Shown in pieces: positions 21,101 to 26,683 of a stretch of 64,000 bases of DNA. The notes under the pieces were generated by a model, which was not told the DNA's origin, made no database searches, and was given only the letters and a program-made list of their open reading frames with translations. This DNA comes from Ornithobacterium rhinotracheale. GTDB lineage: Bacteria > Bacteroidota > Bacteroidia > Flavobacteriales > Weeksellaceae. The position numbers and the translations under genes are program-made. Location of the stretch: assembly GCF_022832975.1 (NCBI RefSeq), contig NZ_CP094846.1, positions 1,337,501 to 1,401,500 on the forward strand. Reading direction: 5' to 3'. Each line of letters opens with the position of its first letter. The first letter of the stretch is position 1.

Positions 21101-21562
21101 AATCTTGATGCCGACACCGAGATTTTAATCCCCTATGAATATGTGAACAATGTCGAGGAGCGTATGCTACTGTATCAACGCTTGGCGGAAATAGAAACGC
21201 CAGAACAATTAAAAGCCTATACCGAGGAGCTTACCGACCGATTTGGTGCTATGCCTACCGAGGTGGAGGAGTTGCTCCAATCCGTGGAATTGAAGTGGGA
21301 GGCTAAAAAACTGGGCATTGAAAAAATTGTTTTAAAACAACACCAAATGCTTTGCTATTTCATCAGCAATCCGCAGTCGCCATTCTTCGAGAGCGAGAAT
21401 TTTAGAAAAATTCCAGCCTTTATTGCCCAAAATCCGAGCCGTTGTAGCCTGCAAGAAAAAAAGCTCAAAGGCAACGATTTTAATACTTTAATTCTGAACA
21501 TTTCGCCTATTTCATCGGTGAGCGCCGCCAAAGAATGCCTGCTTGCCATATTAGGCACCTAA
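18176..21562 (+). CDS. mfd: Transcription-repair coupling factor Mfd
   Basis: Large DNA translocase (about 1128 aa) that removes RNA polymerase stalled at lesions and recruits UvrA. Order of domains: UvrB-like N-terminal region (FSVRGGIVDIFSY near residue 185), RNA-polymerase-interacting RID/CarD-like domain (DYVTHIDHGVGKFGGLKRI near 440-460), helicase motor with Walker A VGFGKTEVA, VDEEHKFGV and TATPIPRTL, RecG-like TRG region and a C-terminal D7 domain. The start is uncertain: GTG 18173, ATG 18176 or TTG 18197 are all in frame, and a promoter box at 18182-18189 favours the last. The 3' end is followed by a GC-rich hairpin and repeats. Confidence 0.95.
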   Translation: MPYLCPVLKEITIQQWYNEHQSSDLVHSLVQFVEKQVHSNLQIKGLVGSYFSLLTAAVFNQTKKNILLIFNDTEEAAYTLNELESVFGKEKVLYFPASHRRPYEIEQTNNANVVLRTEVLNKLANSTKTQIIVTTAQALTEKVVTKKTLNTKTQKIKVGEKLSVEFLNEVLFSYDFHRTDFVTEPGEFSVRGGIVDIFSYSDDQPYRISFFGDEVESIRKFDLESQLSVEKVQHFTVIPNMENKALAEKRESFLDFLPKNTLIFAKNLILSQDHIAKNFDLAQENFKNLSGEIQHLSPEDLFNTAEEIENQLKNKFLIEFSHQTLFAPIDVFELHQSPQPTFNKQFELLIETLGQQHKQGYKNYIFCSGEKQIQRFEEIFSDMGKQVHFTPVLGTLHEGYIHHDAKICCFTDHQIFERYHRFNLRNKFSKSESITLKELTALQVGDYVTHIDHGVGKFGGLKRIDVNGKMQESIKLIYQDNDVLYVSIHSLHKISKFNGKDGRPPKINKLGSPAWRNLKNKTKRKVKEVAFDLIKLYAKRKMEKGFSFSPDTYLQNELEASFMYEDTPDQLKATEEVKADMESSRSMDRLVCGDVGFGKTEVAVRAAFKAATDGKQVAILVPTTILAFQHYNTFRERLKDFPVRVEYLNRFRTTKEKNAILKDLEAGKIDIIIGTHQLVNNKIKYKDLGLLIVDEEHKFGVSVKDKLKTLRAHLDTLTLTATPIPRTLQFSLMAARDLSVIKTPPPNRQPVQTQIIGLNEEAIRDAVFYEIQRGGQVFVIYNRIAGLQEMAGMLQRLIPEAKIAVGHGQMEGKKLEKILLDFMDGKYDILVSTTIVESGVDVPNANTMLIVDAQNYGLAELHQMRGRVGRSNRKAFCYLITPPLVTLTQEARKRLQAIEQFSDLGSGFNIAMKDLEIRGAGNLLGAEQSGFMAEMGFDTYQKILNEAIEELKYSDDFKDLFNDENQKQQDFVSDFNLDADTEILIPYEYVNNVEERMLLYQRLAEIETPEQLKAYTEELTDRFGAMPTEVEELLQSVELKWEAKKLGIEKIVLKQHQMLCYFISNPQSPFFESENFRKIPAFIAQNPSRCSLQEKKLKGNDFNTLILNISPISSVSAAKECLLAILGT
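18182..18189 (+). promoter_or_regulatory. Predicted -7 promoter box of mfd
   Basis: TATCTTTG matches TAnnTTTG; a TTTTG at 18155-18159 could serve as the -33 element with a slightly long spacer. The box lies downstream of the GTG/ATG pair at 18173-18178. If it is the real promoter, translation must start later, most simply at the in-frame TTG at 18197, giving an almost leaderless mRNA. Confidence 0.45.
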
Positions 21563-21564
21563 GA

Positions 21565-21597
21565 GCCCTCGCCCCTCGCTTCGCGAGGGGCGAGGGC
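21565..21597. repeat. GC-rich perfect hairpin downstream of mfd
   Basis: A 15-bp perfect inverted repeat (GCCCTCGCCCCTCGC at 21565-21579, its complement at 21583-21597) with loop TTC starts 2 bases after the mfd stop. It is far more GC-rich than the surroundings. No immediate T run follows; T-rich DNA begins about 10 bases later. It may be a terminator, an mRNA 3'-end stabiliser or a REP-like element. Confidence 0.7.
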
Positions 21598-21672
21598 GTA
21601 TGCCCACTTTTATACTTTTATTTTTCCCTAAAAAAACTATATTTGTATAGCTCACAGTAGTGCAAAAGCCCC

Positions 21673-21847
21673 GACGAGCGTTTAGGCGGTGCCCCAGCTT
21701 GGGAAAGCCCCCCGACGAGCGTTTAGGCGGTGCCCCAGCTTGGGAAAGCCCCTCGACGAGCGTTTAGGCGGTGCCCCAGCTTGGGAAAGCCCCTCGACGA
21801 GCGTTTAAGTGGTGCCCCAGCTTGGGAAAGCCCCCCGACGAGCGTTT
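21673..21847. repeat. 41-bp tandem repeat array, about 4.3 copies
   Basis: Units begin with GACGAGCGTTT at 21673, 21714, 21755, 21796 and 21837, giving an exact 41-bp period. Each unit continues through GGTGCCCCAGCTTGGGAAAG, which contains the small palindrome CCCAGCTTGGG. Copies differ by a few substitutions (for example AGGCGG versus AAGTGG in the fourth). The fifth copy is partial. Because 41 is not a multiple of 3, any frame across it shifts register each unit, so coding is unlikely. The unit is GC-rich in an AT-rich region. Confidence 0.92.
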
Positions 21848-21911
21848 TGGGACGCTTAGCAAGCTATGAGCTAAAAAGAAATAAATGTATAATCTTAAAA
21901 TTTTTTAAACG

Positions 21912-21926
21912 ATGATTTTAGAAAAA
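21912..21926 (+). pseudogene. First five codons of the DUF6261 gene, left of the IS
   Basis: ATG ATT TTA GAA AAA directly precedes the left end of the IS1380 element. If the IS and one copy of the 5-bp AAAAA duplication are removed, this joins in frame to AGT TTG CAC at 23529 to give M-I-L-E-K-S-L-H-R-V-R, a plausible N-terminus for the DUF6261 gene whose body lies on the other side of the IS. Confidence 0.7.
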
Positions 21927-23523
21927 CCTAAAATCCGCAACTATCATCCAATACACGATTAAGGGTAGATTTATGAGTCGTTAGTAGTAGCTTTCAGTAA
22001 AAAGCAACAGCACAACATCAATATGTAGCCAACATCCCCTTACCCCACGATGCGACTTGAGGAAATACGCAGATTCTAACCGGAAAGAAAGGATTCTTAT
22101 CCGAATTCTGTTTTGAAGGGTTTTGCATAAGCGCGGTTCTCTGTGTAGATATTCAGCACGTATTGCCTTGCAGTCATGATCCACTTGGCAGGTACGGAGA
22201 TGAATCTGAAGACAAAAGCCTTTATGCGACTCGTTTTCTTGAGCCCAAAAGCCTTGGTGTCAAGCCTGCTCATGATGGTCTTGTAGAAATTGTGTATCAA
22301 TGCAGTAAGCAGAAGAAAGACAGTATTCTCCGCCATGAATGACTTGGGGAGCCTGCTCCAACCGAATCCGTTGTTCATGTCGTCAAAGATACGTTCCTTG
22401 CCGCCACGCAGATTGTAGAATTCAACAATGTCCCTTGTCGATGACTTGTAATCGTTGGTCAGAATACAACGGTAAGTGTATTCGCCTTCCCATAGGTCAA
22501 GGTCGCCACTGTTGCGTCTTTGTCTCTGGATGACAAGACGATAGCACTTGCCTTCCCATTTCTCAACGAGAATGGAATTGAGTTCGAACTGGATGCCGTT
22601 AATCTCCTCCGTCTTCCATCCTCTCAGAGCAAAGATGTCATTGTAGAGCGAACTGCATCGGTTGGCACGGATGTAGAAATGTTTGCAATGCTTCTCTATC
22701 TCACTGACGATTTCCTTCGAGCAGGAACCGCAGTCTGCCCTGAAGCGATTTACACGGATGTTCTGGGATTCCAGAAGAGCGAAGAATCTCTTATGGGTGT
22801 CTGCCTGATGAAAACGCACATTCGTGTTGCCATCGCTGTTCTCGATATAGACTATCTTGTCACCGATAACATATACGCCAGGCCTGTAGCCGAGGAACTT
22901 TTTGTAGGTCGGTTTTGCATCATACTTCTCCGTTTCAAGAAACTGATGGTCAAAGTCAACATCGTATTCCTCAATTTCCTTCAACTCGCCTGTAGAAACC
23001 AAAGCGTTTATAAGCAATGTGTTGAGTTTGTCTGCAGTATTGAAATCATAGGTCTTGCCTTGGTCGGAAGTATAGGAGATGTTTTCCTGTGTCAGTTCCT
23101 TGATGGCTCTGAGGATGGTATCAGAGCTGCATGTACGAAGGGTAGGATGATACGAGAGATGGCGCATCAGTTGTGACGTTACATCTTCCACGCATGAGCC
23201 GCCACAGAAATAAACGCTCATCAGCGAACGGACTATCTCGCTGAACTGATATCCGAAGATACTGCTGCATCTCTGACCCAGTGTTGAGTCGATAACGGGT
23301 GAAAGCATGGAGTCAAATTTCTCCATGATTGAAAAAATTCCTCCAAAAGGTGTGAGTTTCTCAGATTTAATTTGTATTTTTGCCATGTCATATTAGAGTT
23401 TTGCTTGTTTTCTTTTTGCAACACTAAGATAAGTGAAAATTCTGACACGGCAAAATCCTGGGCAACTTTTTGTTGCTCAGGAACTTATAAATTAATTTAA
23501 ATCAAAGTGTTGCGGAATTAAGG
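21927..23523 (-). mobile_element. IS1380-family insertion sequence, complete
   Basis: A 1597-bp element bounded by imperfect terminal inverted repeats: CCTAAAATCCGCAAC at 21927-21941 and GTTGCGGAATTAAGG at 23509-23523 (13 of 15 bases pair). AAAAA flanks both sides (21922-21926 and 23524-23528), consistent with the short target duplications of the family. It carries one full-length transposase gene on the minus strand. The coding DNA uses more G/C-ending codons than its neighbours, which suggests recent arrival, perhaps from a Bacteroides- or Prevotella-like donor. I cannot give the ISfinder name. Confidence 0.88.
22097..23386 (-). CDS. IS1380 family transposase
   Basis: 429-aa DDE transposase, apparently intact. 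After the N-terminal KLTPFGGIFSIMEKFD, catalytic-region features follow: VDFDHQFLETEKYD (first Asp region, around residue 140), FRADCGSCSKEIV (second Asp, around 220), and LRGGKERIFDDMNNGFGWSRLPKSF with downstream AENTVFLLLTALIHNFYK (Glu region). The start ATG at 23386 lies 123 bases inside the right inverted repeat. No frameshift or stop interrupts it, so the element may still be mobile. Confidence 0.92.
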   Translation of the reverse strand: MAKIQIKSEKLTPFGGIFSIMEKFDSMLSPVIDSTLGQRCSSIFGYQFSEIVRSLMSVYFCGGSCVEDVTSQLMRHLSYHPTLRTCSSDTILRAIKELTQENISYTSDQGKTYDFNTADKLNTLLINALVSTGELKEIEEYDVDFDHQFLETEKYDAKPTYKKFLGYRPGVYVIGDKIVYIENSDGNTNVRFHQADTHKRFFALLESQNIRVNRFRADCGSCSKEIVSEIEKHCKHFYIRANRCSSLYNDIFALRGWKTEEINGIQFELNSILVEKWEGKCYRLVIQRQRRNSGDLDLWEGEYTYRCILTNDYKSSTRDIVEFYNLRGGKERIFDDMNNGFGWSRLPKSFMAENTVFLLLTALIHNFYKTIMSRLDTKAFGLKKTSRIKAFVFRFISVPAKWIMTARQYVLNIYTENRAYAKPFKTEFG

Positions 23524-23528
23524 AAAAA

Positions 23529-24191
23529 AGTTTGCACCGAGTGCGCATGATGGAATTTTTTCAACTGATGAGTGATTTGAAAACTTTCCTAGACAAAGAG
23601 AATGCCGAAAGCCTCAAAATCCAAGCCGTGAAAACGAATTTTGAGCAAAAGTTAGTGGCATTAGACCAAGCCTTAAAACCGCTTGCCAAAAGTAGTTTTA
23701 CCCAAGAAATTCAGGAGCTCGATGAGCAACGAGACCATTACCTCTCGGGCTTAATCCTGCATTGCAAGGCATACAGCCTTTCGCCCACCCCTGCCCAGCG
23801 CGAGCACGCCCAAAAACTTATGCTCGAAATAGAAAAATACGGCAAAAGGATACAGCACAAGCCCCTGCAAGAGGAAAGCGGAATCATTGTGAACCTTTTG
23901 GGCGATTTGGCAACGCCTGCGCTCGACACCGCCATCAAGGGCATAGGAGCCAGCTTTTGGGTAGATGCCATTAAAACCACCAACAATGCCCTAGTGCAGC
24001 GCTACAACCAACGCACCGAGGAGCGTGGCGCCATATCGCTTGGCAAAGCCAAACAGGCTCGCCAACAGATGACCGAGGCGTTTACCCAGCTAGTAAAAAC
24101 CCTCAATGCGCTGGCGCTGATTCATGGCGAGGAGGCTTACCAGAATTTGGCAAATAATTTTAATGAACGCATTAAAAAGGCTTTGCTTTAA
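23529..24191 (+). pseudogene. DUF6261 family protein gene, 5' end separated by the IS
   Basis: About 220 codons of a helical, Gln- and Ala-rich soluble protein. The stretch SLHRVRMMEFFQLMSDLKTF matches the N-terminal pattern of DUF6261 proteins (Leu-Arg-Asn-x-Glu-x-x-Gln-Phe-like), and ALIHGEEAYQNLANNFNERI matches the usual C-terminus. Function is unknown; the family is abundant in Bacteroidota. The IS1380 insertion removed the first five codons. Residual translation could begin at TTG 23532 or ATG 23547, driven by an outward IS promoter, so the product may be nearly complete. It is followed by a terminator shared with the convergent operon. Confidence 0.75.
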
Positions 24192-24222
24192 AATGGGAAC
24201 CCCTTTTGCGTATAGCAACAAA

Positions 24223-24249
24223 AAACGGCCGATACTATATCGGCCGTTT
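24223..24249. terminator. Terminator hairpin between DUF6261 gene and secreted-protein operon
   Basis: 12-bp stem AAACGGCCGATA (24223-24234) and TATCGGCCGTTT (24238-24249) with loop CTA, flanked by A and T runs. It lies between two convergent genes and could end both transcripts. Confidence 0.82.
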
Positions 24250-24295
24250 CCCTTTTTCTGAAAAAAATAGTTTTGAAAAAAACTTTATTATTAGG

Positions 24296-25006
24296 CTACT
24301 TTTTCGCTTTTAAATACTCAATAGGGTTGGAATAGCCAGTTCCTTGATCCCACTGCCCGACTTGTCTGTCTTTATCTACGGAACCTTCGGCTTCTCCTAA
24401 ATCGATTAAAGATCCGCTGTCTACATACAATATATTGAATTTCCAATAAAAAGAATCTTTTCCTTCTCTCGCATATTTTCCTGCATCCCAATCACCTTTT
24501 AAGCCCCCAATGAATGGGTCTGCACCCTCATAATCGGCTTTTATATGCCAATTGCCATCATCACCTGGTTCTACTGATACGGTTTCAGCAATGTTTCCGC
24601 CGTAGCCGTTATTTGCGTGTTTTATTCCATATCTAACCCCTTTTTTTTCATTTTCGTCGTAGTAAGCGTTTCCAAAGAAAGAGGAAACTAAAATGGCAGT
24701 ATATTGGTTAGTTGGCACATTGGTATTGGCATCATAGATCCAATCTTGGTTAGAGTTGGTGGTAATTCTATAAGAAACATTGTTGAAAACCTTTTTGTCT
24801 CCTGAGGCAATTACGAGCCTACGGGTATTTTTATCAATCAATAGGTTGTAGGTTTGTTCTTGTAGGCCAGCCATAGGCACAGCTTCTAAACTCACATTCC
24901 CATTTACCTCTAAGGCAGCTTGTGGGGTTTCGGTATTGACTCCCACTCTTTGTGCCATGGCATTGGCAGAAAACAATGCAACGGCTATGTATAATATCTT
25001 TTTCAT
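24296..25006 (-). CDS. Secreted protein of unknown function, paralog 3 of an operon
   Basis: 236 aa. Signal peptide to about residue 19 (SANAMAQ), then VGVNTETPQAALEVNG, a short beta motif like the GIGTxxPxxxLxV repeats in fibre-type and S74-associated proteins. A middle domain has NSNQDWIYDANTNVPTNQYTAILVSSF, shared with the two upstream genes, and an aromatic C-terminal half (GNWHIKADYEGADPF, FYWKFNILYVDS). There is no type IX secretion sorting domain or lipobox that I can see. Last gene of a three-gene unit (39 bp from the previous gene). Function not recognised. Confidence 0.75.
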   Translation of the reverse strand: MKKILYIAVALFSANAMAQRVGVNTETPQAALEVNGNVSLEAVPMAGLQEQTYNLLIDKNTRRLVIASGDKKVFNNVSYRITTNSNQDWIYDANTNVPTNQYTAILVSSFFGNAYYDENEKKGVRYGIKHANNGYGGNIAETVSVEPGDDGNWHIKADYEGADPFIGGLKGDWDAGKYAREGKDSFYWKFNILYVDSGSLIDLGEAEGSVDKDRQVGQWDQGTGYSNPIEYLKAKK

Positions 25007-25045
25007 TTTATATAAATTCTATAATTTAATGCTTTATGTTTTAAT

Positions 25046-25723
25046 TTATGGCAGTGGGTTTGTAGCAAATCCCCCGTTGCTATTATTATCTAGCGTAACA
25101 GCGCCAAGCCCACCAATTGGTGCGATATAGCGAGTATCTATGGCTACTAATCTAATTTTCCAATAGTACTTACTTCTCTTATCACGAGGATAGCCTTCTT
25201 TGTAATCTGCACGAATTGTCCAAGTAGGGTCTGGCAGATTGGAATCATACCCCACTGTGATTTGCGCAATAGGGTTTGAGTCTTCTTTCCAATAATATTG
25301 TTTGTCTAACTCCGCAGCCCTGTTGGTATTTGCGTTATAAAGGTTAGCTGTGGTATTGAATAATAAATAATCTTTTACAGGGATATTGGTGTCAAATTTT
25401 TTTATAAAACCGTAGCCTGTTTGAAGCGAGGTTAATTTCATTACAAAGGAGTACATACTTCTTGCTTTTTCCTCGGCATTGGCATGGATTTCTTTTTGGC
25501 CTTCGCCTGCTCTTTGGTTTCTGAATAGGGGCATAGCTGGAGAAGATCCGTCGTACACATCTGGTTTTTCAACTCTTAGGGTTCCACGAATGTCTAAGGT
25601 AGCTTGTGGGGTGGCATTGGCATCGTTTGCATTGATTGCCACACCGCCTGTATGTTGTTTTTGTGCATATAGCCCGAGTGAGCTTGCCATAAACAAGGCA
25701 CTCAATATATATTTTTTATTCAT
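25046..25723 (-). CDS. Secreted protein of unknown function, paralog 2 of an operon
   Basis: 225 aa. Signal peptide ends near SLGLYAQ. The N-terminal segment GGVAINANDANATPQATLDIRG is a looser version of the VGVNTETP motif of its neighbours. The core has FIKKFDTNIPVKDYLLF, which lines up with NQDWI...TNVP...Y...LV in the flanking genes, then DPTWTIRADYKEGYPRDKRSKYYWKIRLVAIDT, which matches the other two in order and spacing. It is 31 bp from the upstream and 39 bp from the downstream gene. I do not recognise the family. Confidence 0.75.
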   Translation of the reverse strand: MNKKYILSALFMASSLGLYAQKQHTGGVAINANDANATPQATLDIRGTLRVEKPDVYDGSSPAMPLFRNQRAGEGQKEIHANAEEKARSMYSFVMKLTSLQTGYGFIKKFDTNIPVKDYLLFNTTANLYNANTNRAAELDKQYYWKEDSNPIAQITVGYDSNLPDPTWTIRADYKEGYPRDKRSKYYWKIRLVAIDTRYIAPIGGLGAVTLDNNSNGGFATNPLP

Positions 25724-25754
25724 TGTGATTCTATTTTGTTTTAGGTAAAAAAAA

Positions 25755-26420
25755 TTAGTTGAAAGGATTTGGTAAACTCACATCAGGGTTTCCGCCTAGC
25801 TCCTCATGCCAAGTAGTAGTTCCCTCTTGAGATGGTAGGGTTTTGATTTCGTTTAAATCTATGGCTAAAAGTGTAACAGTCCAAGTGAAACGCCCATCAT
25901 AGCCGCCAGTCCACCAATCAGGACGAGCATGAGGGTAGTCTATGGTTAGACGCCAAGTACCACTATCCTCAAACATCAAGGCTTTTCTAACAGGGTTTAT
26001 AAATAGAACGCCAGGATCAAGCTGACCATCTACATGTTTTATATCTAACCAGTTCTCATTTTGTAGGGCTTCAGGAAATGCATTAACAAGGATTACTTTA
26101 TACTTATCTGTAGGGATTTTGGTGTCAAAATTTTGGATCCAATCCTGGTTATTTATACAATTAACCTTAAATTTAAGTAGGTAATAAGGTTTTTTTTGGG
26201 TGTTGGCAGTCTTTACCTCTTTGGTTACTGGGTTCCACACAAGGGGCTGGTCGGTGGTAGCGGCTTGTGGGGTTTGGCGTATGATCATATTGCCATCGCC
26301 ATCGGTACCTGTTGCCACATGCAGGGTGGCTTCGGGGGTTTCGGTATTCACCCCTACCTTTTGCTGAGCGTGCAGGCAAATTGTGCCCACAGCCATCAGC
26401 GAGAATAAAAGTTTCTTCAT
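25755..26420 (-). CDS. Secreted protein of unknown function, paralog 1 of an operon
   Basis: 221 aa from the ATG at 26420. Signal peptide MKKLLFSLMAVGTICLHAQ, then KVGVNTETPEATLHVATG. The core NNQDWIQNFDTKIPTDKYKVILVNAF and the late GTWRLTIDYPHARPDWW with FTWTVTLLAIDLNE mirror the two downstream genes. The frame is open to 26531, but the added N-terminus contains no signal and overlaps the promoter box at 26466-26473, so 26420 is preferred. First gene of the unit. Function unknown; extracellular or outer-surface location is inferred from the signal peptide. Confidence 0.77.
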   Translation of the reverse strand: MKKLLFSLMAVGTICLHAQQKVGVNTETPEATLHVATGTDGDGNMIIRQTPQAATTDQPLVWNPVTKEVKTANTQKKPYYLLKFKVNCINNQDWIQNFDTKIPTDKYKVILVNAFPEALQNENWLDIKHVDGQLDPGVLFINPVRKALMFEDSGTWRLTIDYPHARPDWWTGGYDGRFTWTVTLLAIDLNEIKTLPSQEGTTTWHEELGGNPDVSLPNPFN

Positions 26421-26465
26421 ATTATTTTGTTTTTTTATGTTCCTCAATTTCATCATTAAGGGTTG

Positions 26466-26495
26466 CAAAGATATGTATAATGTACGTATTTCAAA
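26466..26495 (-). promoter_or_regulatory. Predicted promoter of the three-gene secreted-protein operon
   Basis: On the minus strand TTTG (26495-26492) is followed after 18 bases by TATCTTTG (26473-26466). This is a near-ideal Bacteroidota promoter (-33 TTTG, -7 TAnnTTTG) and leaves a leader of about 40 bases before the ATG at 26420. The remaining gap up to the ilvE terminator (26496-26683) holds nothing else I can name. Confidence 0.7.
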
Positions 26496-26683
26496 ATTTT
26501 TCAGCAGATATTTTTTGGTTTTAACACACAATGATATGTTAAAAAATATTTCTTTTATTCCGTTGTTAAGTAATAATCAATCACTTAGAGGGGTGTAATC
26601 TGTGCATTGTCGCCTTTTATTTATTTTGGGGGCTATGCTGTGTGGCTGGGCAATTAATAATAAGGCACTATATAAGGTATACA

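Follow-up and report, generated by a model that had tools for sequence, protein, structure and literature searches.

A minus-strand operon at positions 24296-26420 of the window, the 64,000-nucleotide stretch of Ornithobacterium rhinotracheale DNA that was analysed, encodes three homologous secreted proteins, A, B and C (221, 225 and 236 amino acids). Our slightly favoured reading is that they are surface proteins, short and trimeric with a stalk and a tip, that make up one functional unit, probably with a role in recognition or adhesion.

The genes are transcribed in the order A (P0003, 25755-26420), B (P0002, 25046-25723) and C (P0001, 24296-25006), all on the minus strand and separated by gaps of 31 bp and 39 bp; all three are open reading frames, and A has an 81% identical match in a same-genus genome. 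Each protein starts with a signal-peptide-like stretch, read by eye, that ends in A-Q. In searches of the window's own genome, C recovered A at E 2.3e-16 and A recovered C at E 5.4e-17, a homology which is beyond chance at the level of sequence. B is the most diverged of the three, being reached from C only at E 0.14, and is tied to A and C through the conserved W..(D/A)DY and W.I.L.AID blocks. Core profile scores were 2.4e-37 for A, 1.1e-34 for C and 2.3e-34 for B, all three sequences belonging to that profile, and relatives of B were linked to the family by profile comparison. The original prediction of three diverged secreted paralogs in one operon, with signal peptides, short gaps and common tryptophan-containing blocks, is thus borne out, while two of its details hold for A and C but not for B: in place of the NQDWI core B has GYGFIKKFDTNIP, and the VGVNTETP-type motif, intact in A and C, is interrupted in B by an insertion.

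The trio sits between an ilvE-like aminotransferase gene, named from its sequence, and a convergent DUF6261 gene. A strong promoter and a strong terminator had also been predicted. A possible promoter, TTTG-N18-TATCTTTG, lies on the minus strand at 26466-26495, approximately 45 bp before gene A, and matches the Bacteroidetes-type consensus. The full pattern was found 7 times in the window against 4.3 expected, with 17 of 100 shuffles reaching 7, and since it is not enriched over shuffles the match before A counts as weak evidence; a sigma-70 scan of the window gave no excess (6 sites versus 7.7 in shuffles). Such a promoter preceded A in 1 of the 58 named loci described below and is therefore not general. 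With respect to the terminator, a hairpin between C and the DUF6261 gene (24223-24249) had a folding z of -3.87, with 0 of 200 shuffles as good, but the terminator scan of the window gave 3 sites versus 2.9 in shuffles.

The segment at 21538-26682, which holds an IS-like transposase gene, the DUF6261 gene and the trio, is absent from the same-genus genome G002, in which nothing separates an mfd-like gene from the ilvE-like gene (both named from their sequences). The transposase-like gene, of IS type by reading, lies on the minus strand at 22097-23386, adjoins the DUF6261 gene and had no PADLOC match; the stretch around it (21927-23522) is missing at the same place in a second same-genus genome, G001. 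In the interval from the mfd-like gene to the DUF6261 gene, overlapping BLAST pieces against G001 at about 21665-21850 hint at a short tandem repeat with a unit of about 40 bp.

As had been predicted, the three proteins are without recognised function. Neither Pfam nor NCBIfam gave a match to A, B or C up to E 1, and HMM searches returned no known fimbrial or enzyme family, with nothing above the curated cut-offs of Pfam, NCBIfam, PHROGs or PADLOC for 39 family members and P0001-P0003. The predicted lack of a visible sorting domain was also upheld, no T9SS sorting-domain model being matched in A, B, C or the 39 members; T9SS_sortase_N, which hit 4 of the 39 (best E 0.0071), is the PorU sortase model and not a sorting domain. 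Other weak hits among the 39 members were disbelieved, namely DarA_N (one member, E 0.0037), GH43_C (one, 0.0075), Prophage_tailD1 (one, 0.062), Cas5t (three, 0.011) and two more at 0.07, and so were Bindin on one single-gene relative (E 0.033), PDB sequences for P0003 alone (E 0.63 and 1.1) and two PDB chains matched by the family profile outside the motif (E 0.9). Peptidase_S74 was found neither among the 39 members (E up to 0.1) nor in P0001-P0003 (E up to 1). The one plasmid match was weak and fell on the N-part of a single-gene protein. Type V (FimA/Mfa1) fimbriae of Bacteroidota have a matching fimbrillin model and a lipoprotein signal with a cysteine; here no such family matched, and the residue after the likely cleavage site is, by eye, glutamine. 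The binary insecticidal pair of Chryseobacterium consists, in the available part of PMC9937505, of proteins of 580 and 467 amino acids, one without any InterPro feature and the other with a lipoprotein signal, and from that description a relation to the trio was set aside on size and layout. No description of the trio was found in the open-licence papers searched.

The link to trimeric stalks comes from the N-terminal segment. The capping-loop motif of this stalk-like module reads VGVNTETPEATL in A (residues 22-33 of P0003, 26322-26357) and VGVNTETPQAAL in C (residues 21-32 of P0001, 24911-24946), and B carries a degenerate form with an insertion, VAINANDANATPQATLDI (residues 28-45 of P0002, 25589-25642), all on the minus strand. 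Of 76 family rows, 57 carried the strict motif, where shuffled sequences averaged 0.005; window A and C have it and window B fails it. Two motifs preceded the same core in two of four single-gene relatives. When PDB sequences were searched with a family profile of 39 members, matches were obtained to 8ond (bd2133; whole-sequence E 3e-8, best single stretch 0.015), 8ojn (Bd3182; E 5e-4, single stretch 0.78) and MyRF 7dc3 (E 0.0011, single stretch 0.0032), and all five matches under E 0.2 fell on the motif. The match is short and its single-stretch E-values are weak (0.0032 to 0.78 among the better ones). When the profile was built from the window-genus A proteins alone, bd2133 was reached at only E 0.27, and neither P0001 alone nor P0003 alone had a stalk match in PDB sequences, so that the link depends on the family profile together with the motif.

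In the available part of PMC10769870, this motif is the consensus capping loop of the trimeric beta-helix fibres of the MAT superfamily, and its authors report that it finds MyRF, whose stalk is a triangular prism of three chains in the corresponding part of PMC8326128. The consensus as printed in PMC10769870, V-G-G/N-pi-X-X-P-X-X-X-L, is one position shorter than the aligned chains, and by our own count the 8ojn match is the 14-residue loop R656-H669 named in that text. The N-terminal third of A and B was poorly predicted by AlphaFold2, as would be expected if the segment folds only as a trimer. A VGINTxxPxAxLDV segment was also observed right after a signal-peptide-like start on many unrelated secreted Weeksellaceae proteins (loci L018, L022, L026, L028, L032, L035, L067 and others), hinting at a widespread stalk-type module in the family; because so many unrelated proteins carry it, the module says little on the trio's own job.

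The C-terminal cores, proposed as tip domains, lie on the minus strand at 25755-26195 (A), 25046-25465 (B) and 24296-24796 (C, from sequence and profile only). Single-chain AlphaFold2 models of A and B had mean pLDDT of 64.0 and 62.7; from residue 81 to residue 190 of A, six blocks of ten residues were at pLDDT 80-95 and the loops around residues 121-140 below 50. Both modelled cores consisted almost wholly of beta strands, which followed one another in the same order, so the differing folds against which structure prediction had been proposed as a check were not seen. The C-terminal domain is predicted to be a beta-sandwich and has no clear solved match. A Foldseek-type PDB structure search with the A model gave none at E≤1e-3 (best E 0.02), the core profile alone gave nothing against PDB sequences up to E 1, and viral models (BFVD) gave none for A at E 1e-3 (best E 2.9e-3). 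In VIA, used for A and as the sole structure comparison for B, the best Z-scores of 6.1 for A and 6.0 for B are in the ordinary range for such models. The folds listed by VIA at Z around 5-6 (CBM3, cohesins, adaptins, integrin, tailspike) and the BFVD matches were set aside as lying in the common range for beta-sandwiches.

The layout of the trio is like that of the non-S74 branch of MATs (Bd2133, Bd1334), which have a signal peptide, a capping-loop motif (VGINTAAP and VGVGTTAPTSAL in the solved chains) and, as far as the available text of PMC10769870 goes, a beta-sandwich at the C-terminus instead of the S74 chaperone, that of the trio being a predicted one. The same text gives the MATs of Bdellovibrio bacteriovorus as typically about 1,000 amino acids long, with a beta-rich domain of about 130 amino acids after the signal peptide in all 21 of them, and with tips that include beta-sandwiches, those of Bd2133 and Bd1334 having no PDB homologue at that time. 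In contrast, the trio proteins are 221-236 amino acids long, carry the motif within a few residues of the signal peptide, have no domain of about 130 residues, and are three paralogs kept in one operon. Because the base domain is missing, the trio was not filed as a MAT member, even though its putative trimers would work in the manner of a MAT fibre. MyRF (7dc3) is alike in the VGINTxxPxxxLxVxG segment that aligns with the family profile at E 0.0011 and unlike in being a membrane-bound transcription factor of eukaryotes, one whose self-cleaving domain is of the S74 type, a domain that the trio does not have. While S74 phage tail fibres and endosialidases have trimeric beta-helix stalks related to MAT stalks (PMC10769870, available part), the trio has no S74 domain and no phage context.

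A search seeded on A proteins alone yielded 58 named Weeksellaceae loci, comprising 56 from Chryseobacterium, one Cruoricaptor ignavus assembly and one Kaistella palustris, with four strains present twice. Exactly three adjacent members were found in 57 of the 58, L135 having four pieces; with start codons picked by a rule, A-B spacing was 0-20 bp in 57/57 and B-C spacing -1 to 10 bp in 48/57. The fetched flank held nusG, with the trio lying after it, in 50/58 and rplK in 49/58. Elsewhere the trio kept its order too, in neighbourhoods with nrdB/nrdA-, ilvE-, ruvA/sprA- or galactose-type genes, whose names were read from sequence. The search for synteny in other Flavobacteriia that had been proposed thus gave a fixed order across genera. 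Co-transcription of the trio with ribosomal genes in Chryseobacterium is unsupported, the gap from nusG to A being at least 279 bp in all 50 loci with nusG found and C being followed by its own hairpin in the one downstream Chryseobacterium stretch inspected; the available part of PMC13063519 merely lists the nusG and rplK genes as a housekeeping cassette.

In total 97 loci were scanned for members, the 58 from the A-seeded search and 39 picked by hand, and at least three places appear under two identifiers (L098/L118, L109/L174, L111/L175). The trio was present in 26 of the hand-picked loci (L108 and L116 partly by eye), and in the other 13 the genes stood singly, in pairs or at a distance from one another, several having longer N-parts, or nothing matched. 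The core profile matched 89 of 246 family genomes and 10 of 33 genera, and all its hits in the order sample (21/296) and the phylum sample (6/296) were inside the family. It also had no match in the same-genus genomes G002 and G003. The full-length profile A1 matched G003 at 1.4e-12, probably through the N-part alone given the lack of a core match there. Further genes were seen between C and rplK in some loci, and ten loci, all from Chryseobacterium, had two extra genes there of about 518-561 amino acids (L123, L132, L133, L143, L147, L149, L153, L157, L159 and L173). Small genes of about 140-155 amino acids with a start like MxFKxIxIGxxI, possibly regulators, were found near single or trio members in the flanks of L101, L102, L103 and L117.

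A tree of 76 proteins required 9 changes for the labels A, B, C and single against 38.2 in shuffles, with 0 of 200 shuffles as low; a quick tree, some of whose rows had an untrimmed or missing N-end (e.g. L166 A, L111 C, L198 B), gave 8. First, second and third genes formed separate clades within each large set. Holding all first-position rows together, as a single origin would have it, was not rejected (p-AU 0.092), whereas the same constraint was rejected for second-position (p-AU 0.005) and third-position rows (0.026). With long branches in play, either trios arose more than once or distant rows are misplaced; whichever the origin, the sequences indicate three distinct sisters kept in fixed order for a long time.

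The window's genome carries a second set, X1-X2-X3, at G000:C1:391703-394015 (L010:5704-8016), before ruvA- and sprA-like genes. Pairwise identity was 40% for A-X1, 30% for B-X2 and 33% for C-X3, and the same pairings were supported by SH-aLRT values of 91, 93 and 94 on the quick tree and by 100/89, 99/92 and 100/95 on the tree of 76 proteins. As each window gene pairs with the gene of the same position, the duplication took in the entire trio. X1 and X2 form a single open frame of 483 amino acids (L010:5704-7155), inside which lies a signal-peptide-like stretch; the frame reflects either a natural fusion or the loss of a stop codon. The duplication of the trio as a unit and the order kept across genera agree with the original prediction that the three proteins likely work together, and that A, B and C are diverged paralogs acting together is well supported.

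Between the window and G001, A, B and C were 80-86% identical while six of six neighbours were 96-100% identical. The dN/dS values were 0.67 for A, 0.74 for B and 0.56 for C, as compared with 0.00-0.10 in five of the six neighbouring genes; the sixth, DUF6261, had 0.41 on a dS of 0.014. In this species pair dN was about six times higher in the cores (0.152) than in the N-parts (0.024). Synonymous change was also higher in the cores (dS 0.223 versus 0.071), so that dN/dS, at 0.68 and 0.35 and below 1 in both, differs only two-fold. The raised dS suggests that exchange of divergent alleles, as well as selection, has shaped the cores, as judged from this one species pair. In contrast, trios of Chryseobacterium were strongly constrained, with median dN/dS of 0.068, 0.086 and 0.058 (137, 214 and 108 pairs among the first 26 named loci, at dS 0.1 to 1.2). 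Judged by these comparisons the trio is common and constrained in Chryseobacterium, whereas its absence from G002, the lack of a core match in G003, the second trio and the divergence from G001 make it, in the window's genus, accessory, duplicated in one genome and fast-changing.

The idea of surface-fibre subunits or adhesins, put forward in the original prediction, gains from the likeness that the profile search revealed between the N-terminal motif and solved trimeric stalks, while surface location, trimerisation and binding are steps that we infer. The Sec signal peptide, read by eye, would export each protein, and the VGVNTETP-type segment would supply the capping loop and strand of a three-chain beta-helix and so trimerise it. 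The C-terminal beta-sandwich would then be an exposed tip touching a glycan, a surface protein, a host or a rival, and the three tips would act together at a fixed ratio set by the tight gene coupling. The assembly would be either an A:B:C heterotrimer or, nearly as likely, three homotrimers in one structure.

Only tentatively, at distinctly less than even confidence, do we propose a one-of-each heterotrimeric surface fibre in which A, B and C would each contribute one chain of a MAT-like stalk and one face of a composite tip. It is attractive in that there are three chains for a three-fold stalk. If true, it would account for there being three paralogs, for an order and coupling that persist when the locus moves and for the age of the position-specific clades, and the composite tip would be one that changes fast in the window's genus, as recognition surfaces do. 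In C1q, three chains from neighbouring genes form heterotrimeric heads. The trio has no collagen stalk, and the likeness is in logic only, that of three paralogous chains, clustered genes and, as proposed for the trio, one trimeric head; in that logic a heterotrimer would be a bacterial counterpart to C1q.

It is possible, if rather unlikely, that the proteins are instead three separate homotrimeric adhesins for three different targets, the operon then being a small repertoire and not a single complex. Single-gene relatives with the same core do exist, some with longer two-motif N-parts, and the solved MAT tips are described, in the available part of PMC10769870, as trimers of one chain type. 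A repertoire should nevertheless vary in number and order, yet three in a fixed order is the rule (57 of the 58 named loci).

An improbable reading takes the proteins as secreted soluble effectors or toxins, or as a periplasmic complex, with the N-terminal motif serving as an export or processing tag and not as a stalk. No anchor is visible in A, B or C and, as stated, no sorting domain, and many unrelated secreted proteins carry the motif just behind their signal peptide; however, it matches segments from the stalks of solved trimers, no family of toxins, enzymes or defence proteins was found above cut-off, and no partner gene travels with the trio in the loci inspected. That the genes are what is left of phage tail-fibre genes retained on the chromosome is very improbable indeed: although the N-terminal motif is also found in phage-type fibres and the N-part of C had weak hits to two PHROGs of unknown function (phrog_28668 on residues 10-42, E 0.0044; phrog_5906 on residues 15-94, E 0.0065), none of 50,697 phage records was matched in tblastn by A or by one single-gene relative, no relative of the core was confirmed when viral contigs were scanned (12 contigs matched the part before the core), the flanks inspected were cellular genes, and the trio is under purifying selection in Chryseobacterium.

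As short stalk-and-tip surface proteins, the products of this unannotated, deeply conserved three-gene unit would represent a three-paralog version, reduced in length, of the trimeric fibre proteins of Bdellovibrio and phages. The trio raises the question of whether a bacterium builds a heterotrimeric fibre from three dedicated chains, and of what ligand its tip would bind, and it draws attention to a capping-loop module that many secreted Weeksellaceae proteins without annotation carry.
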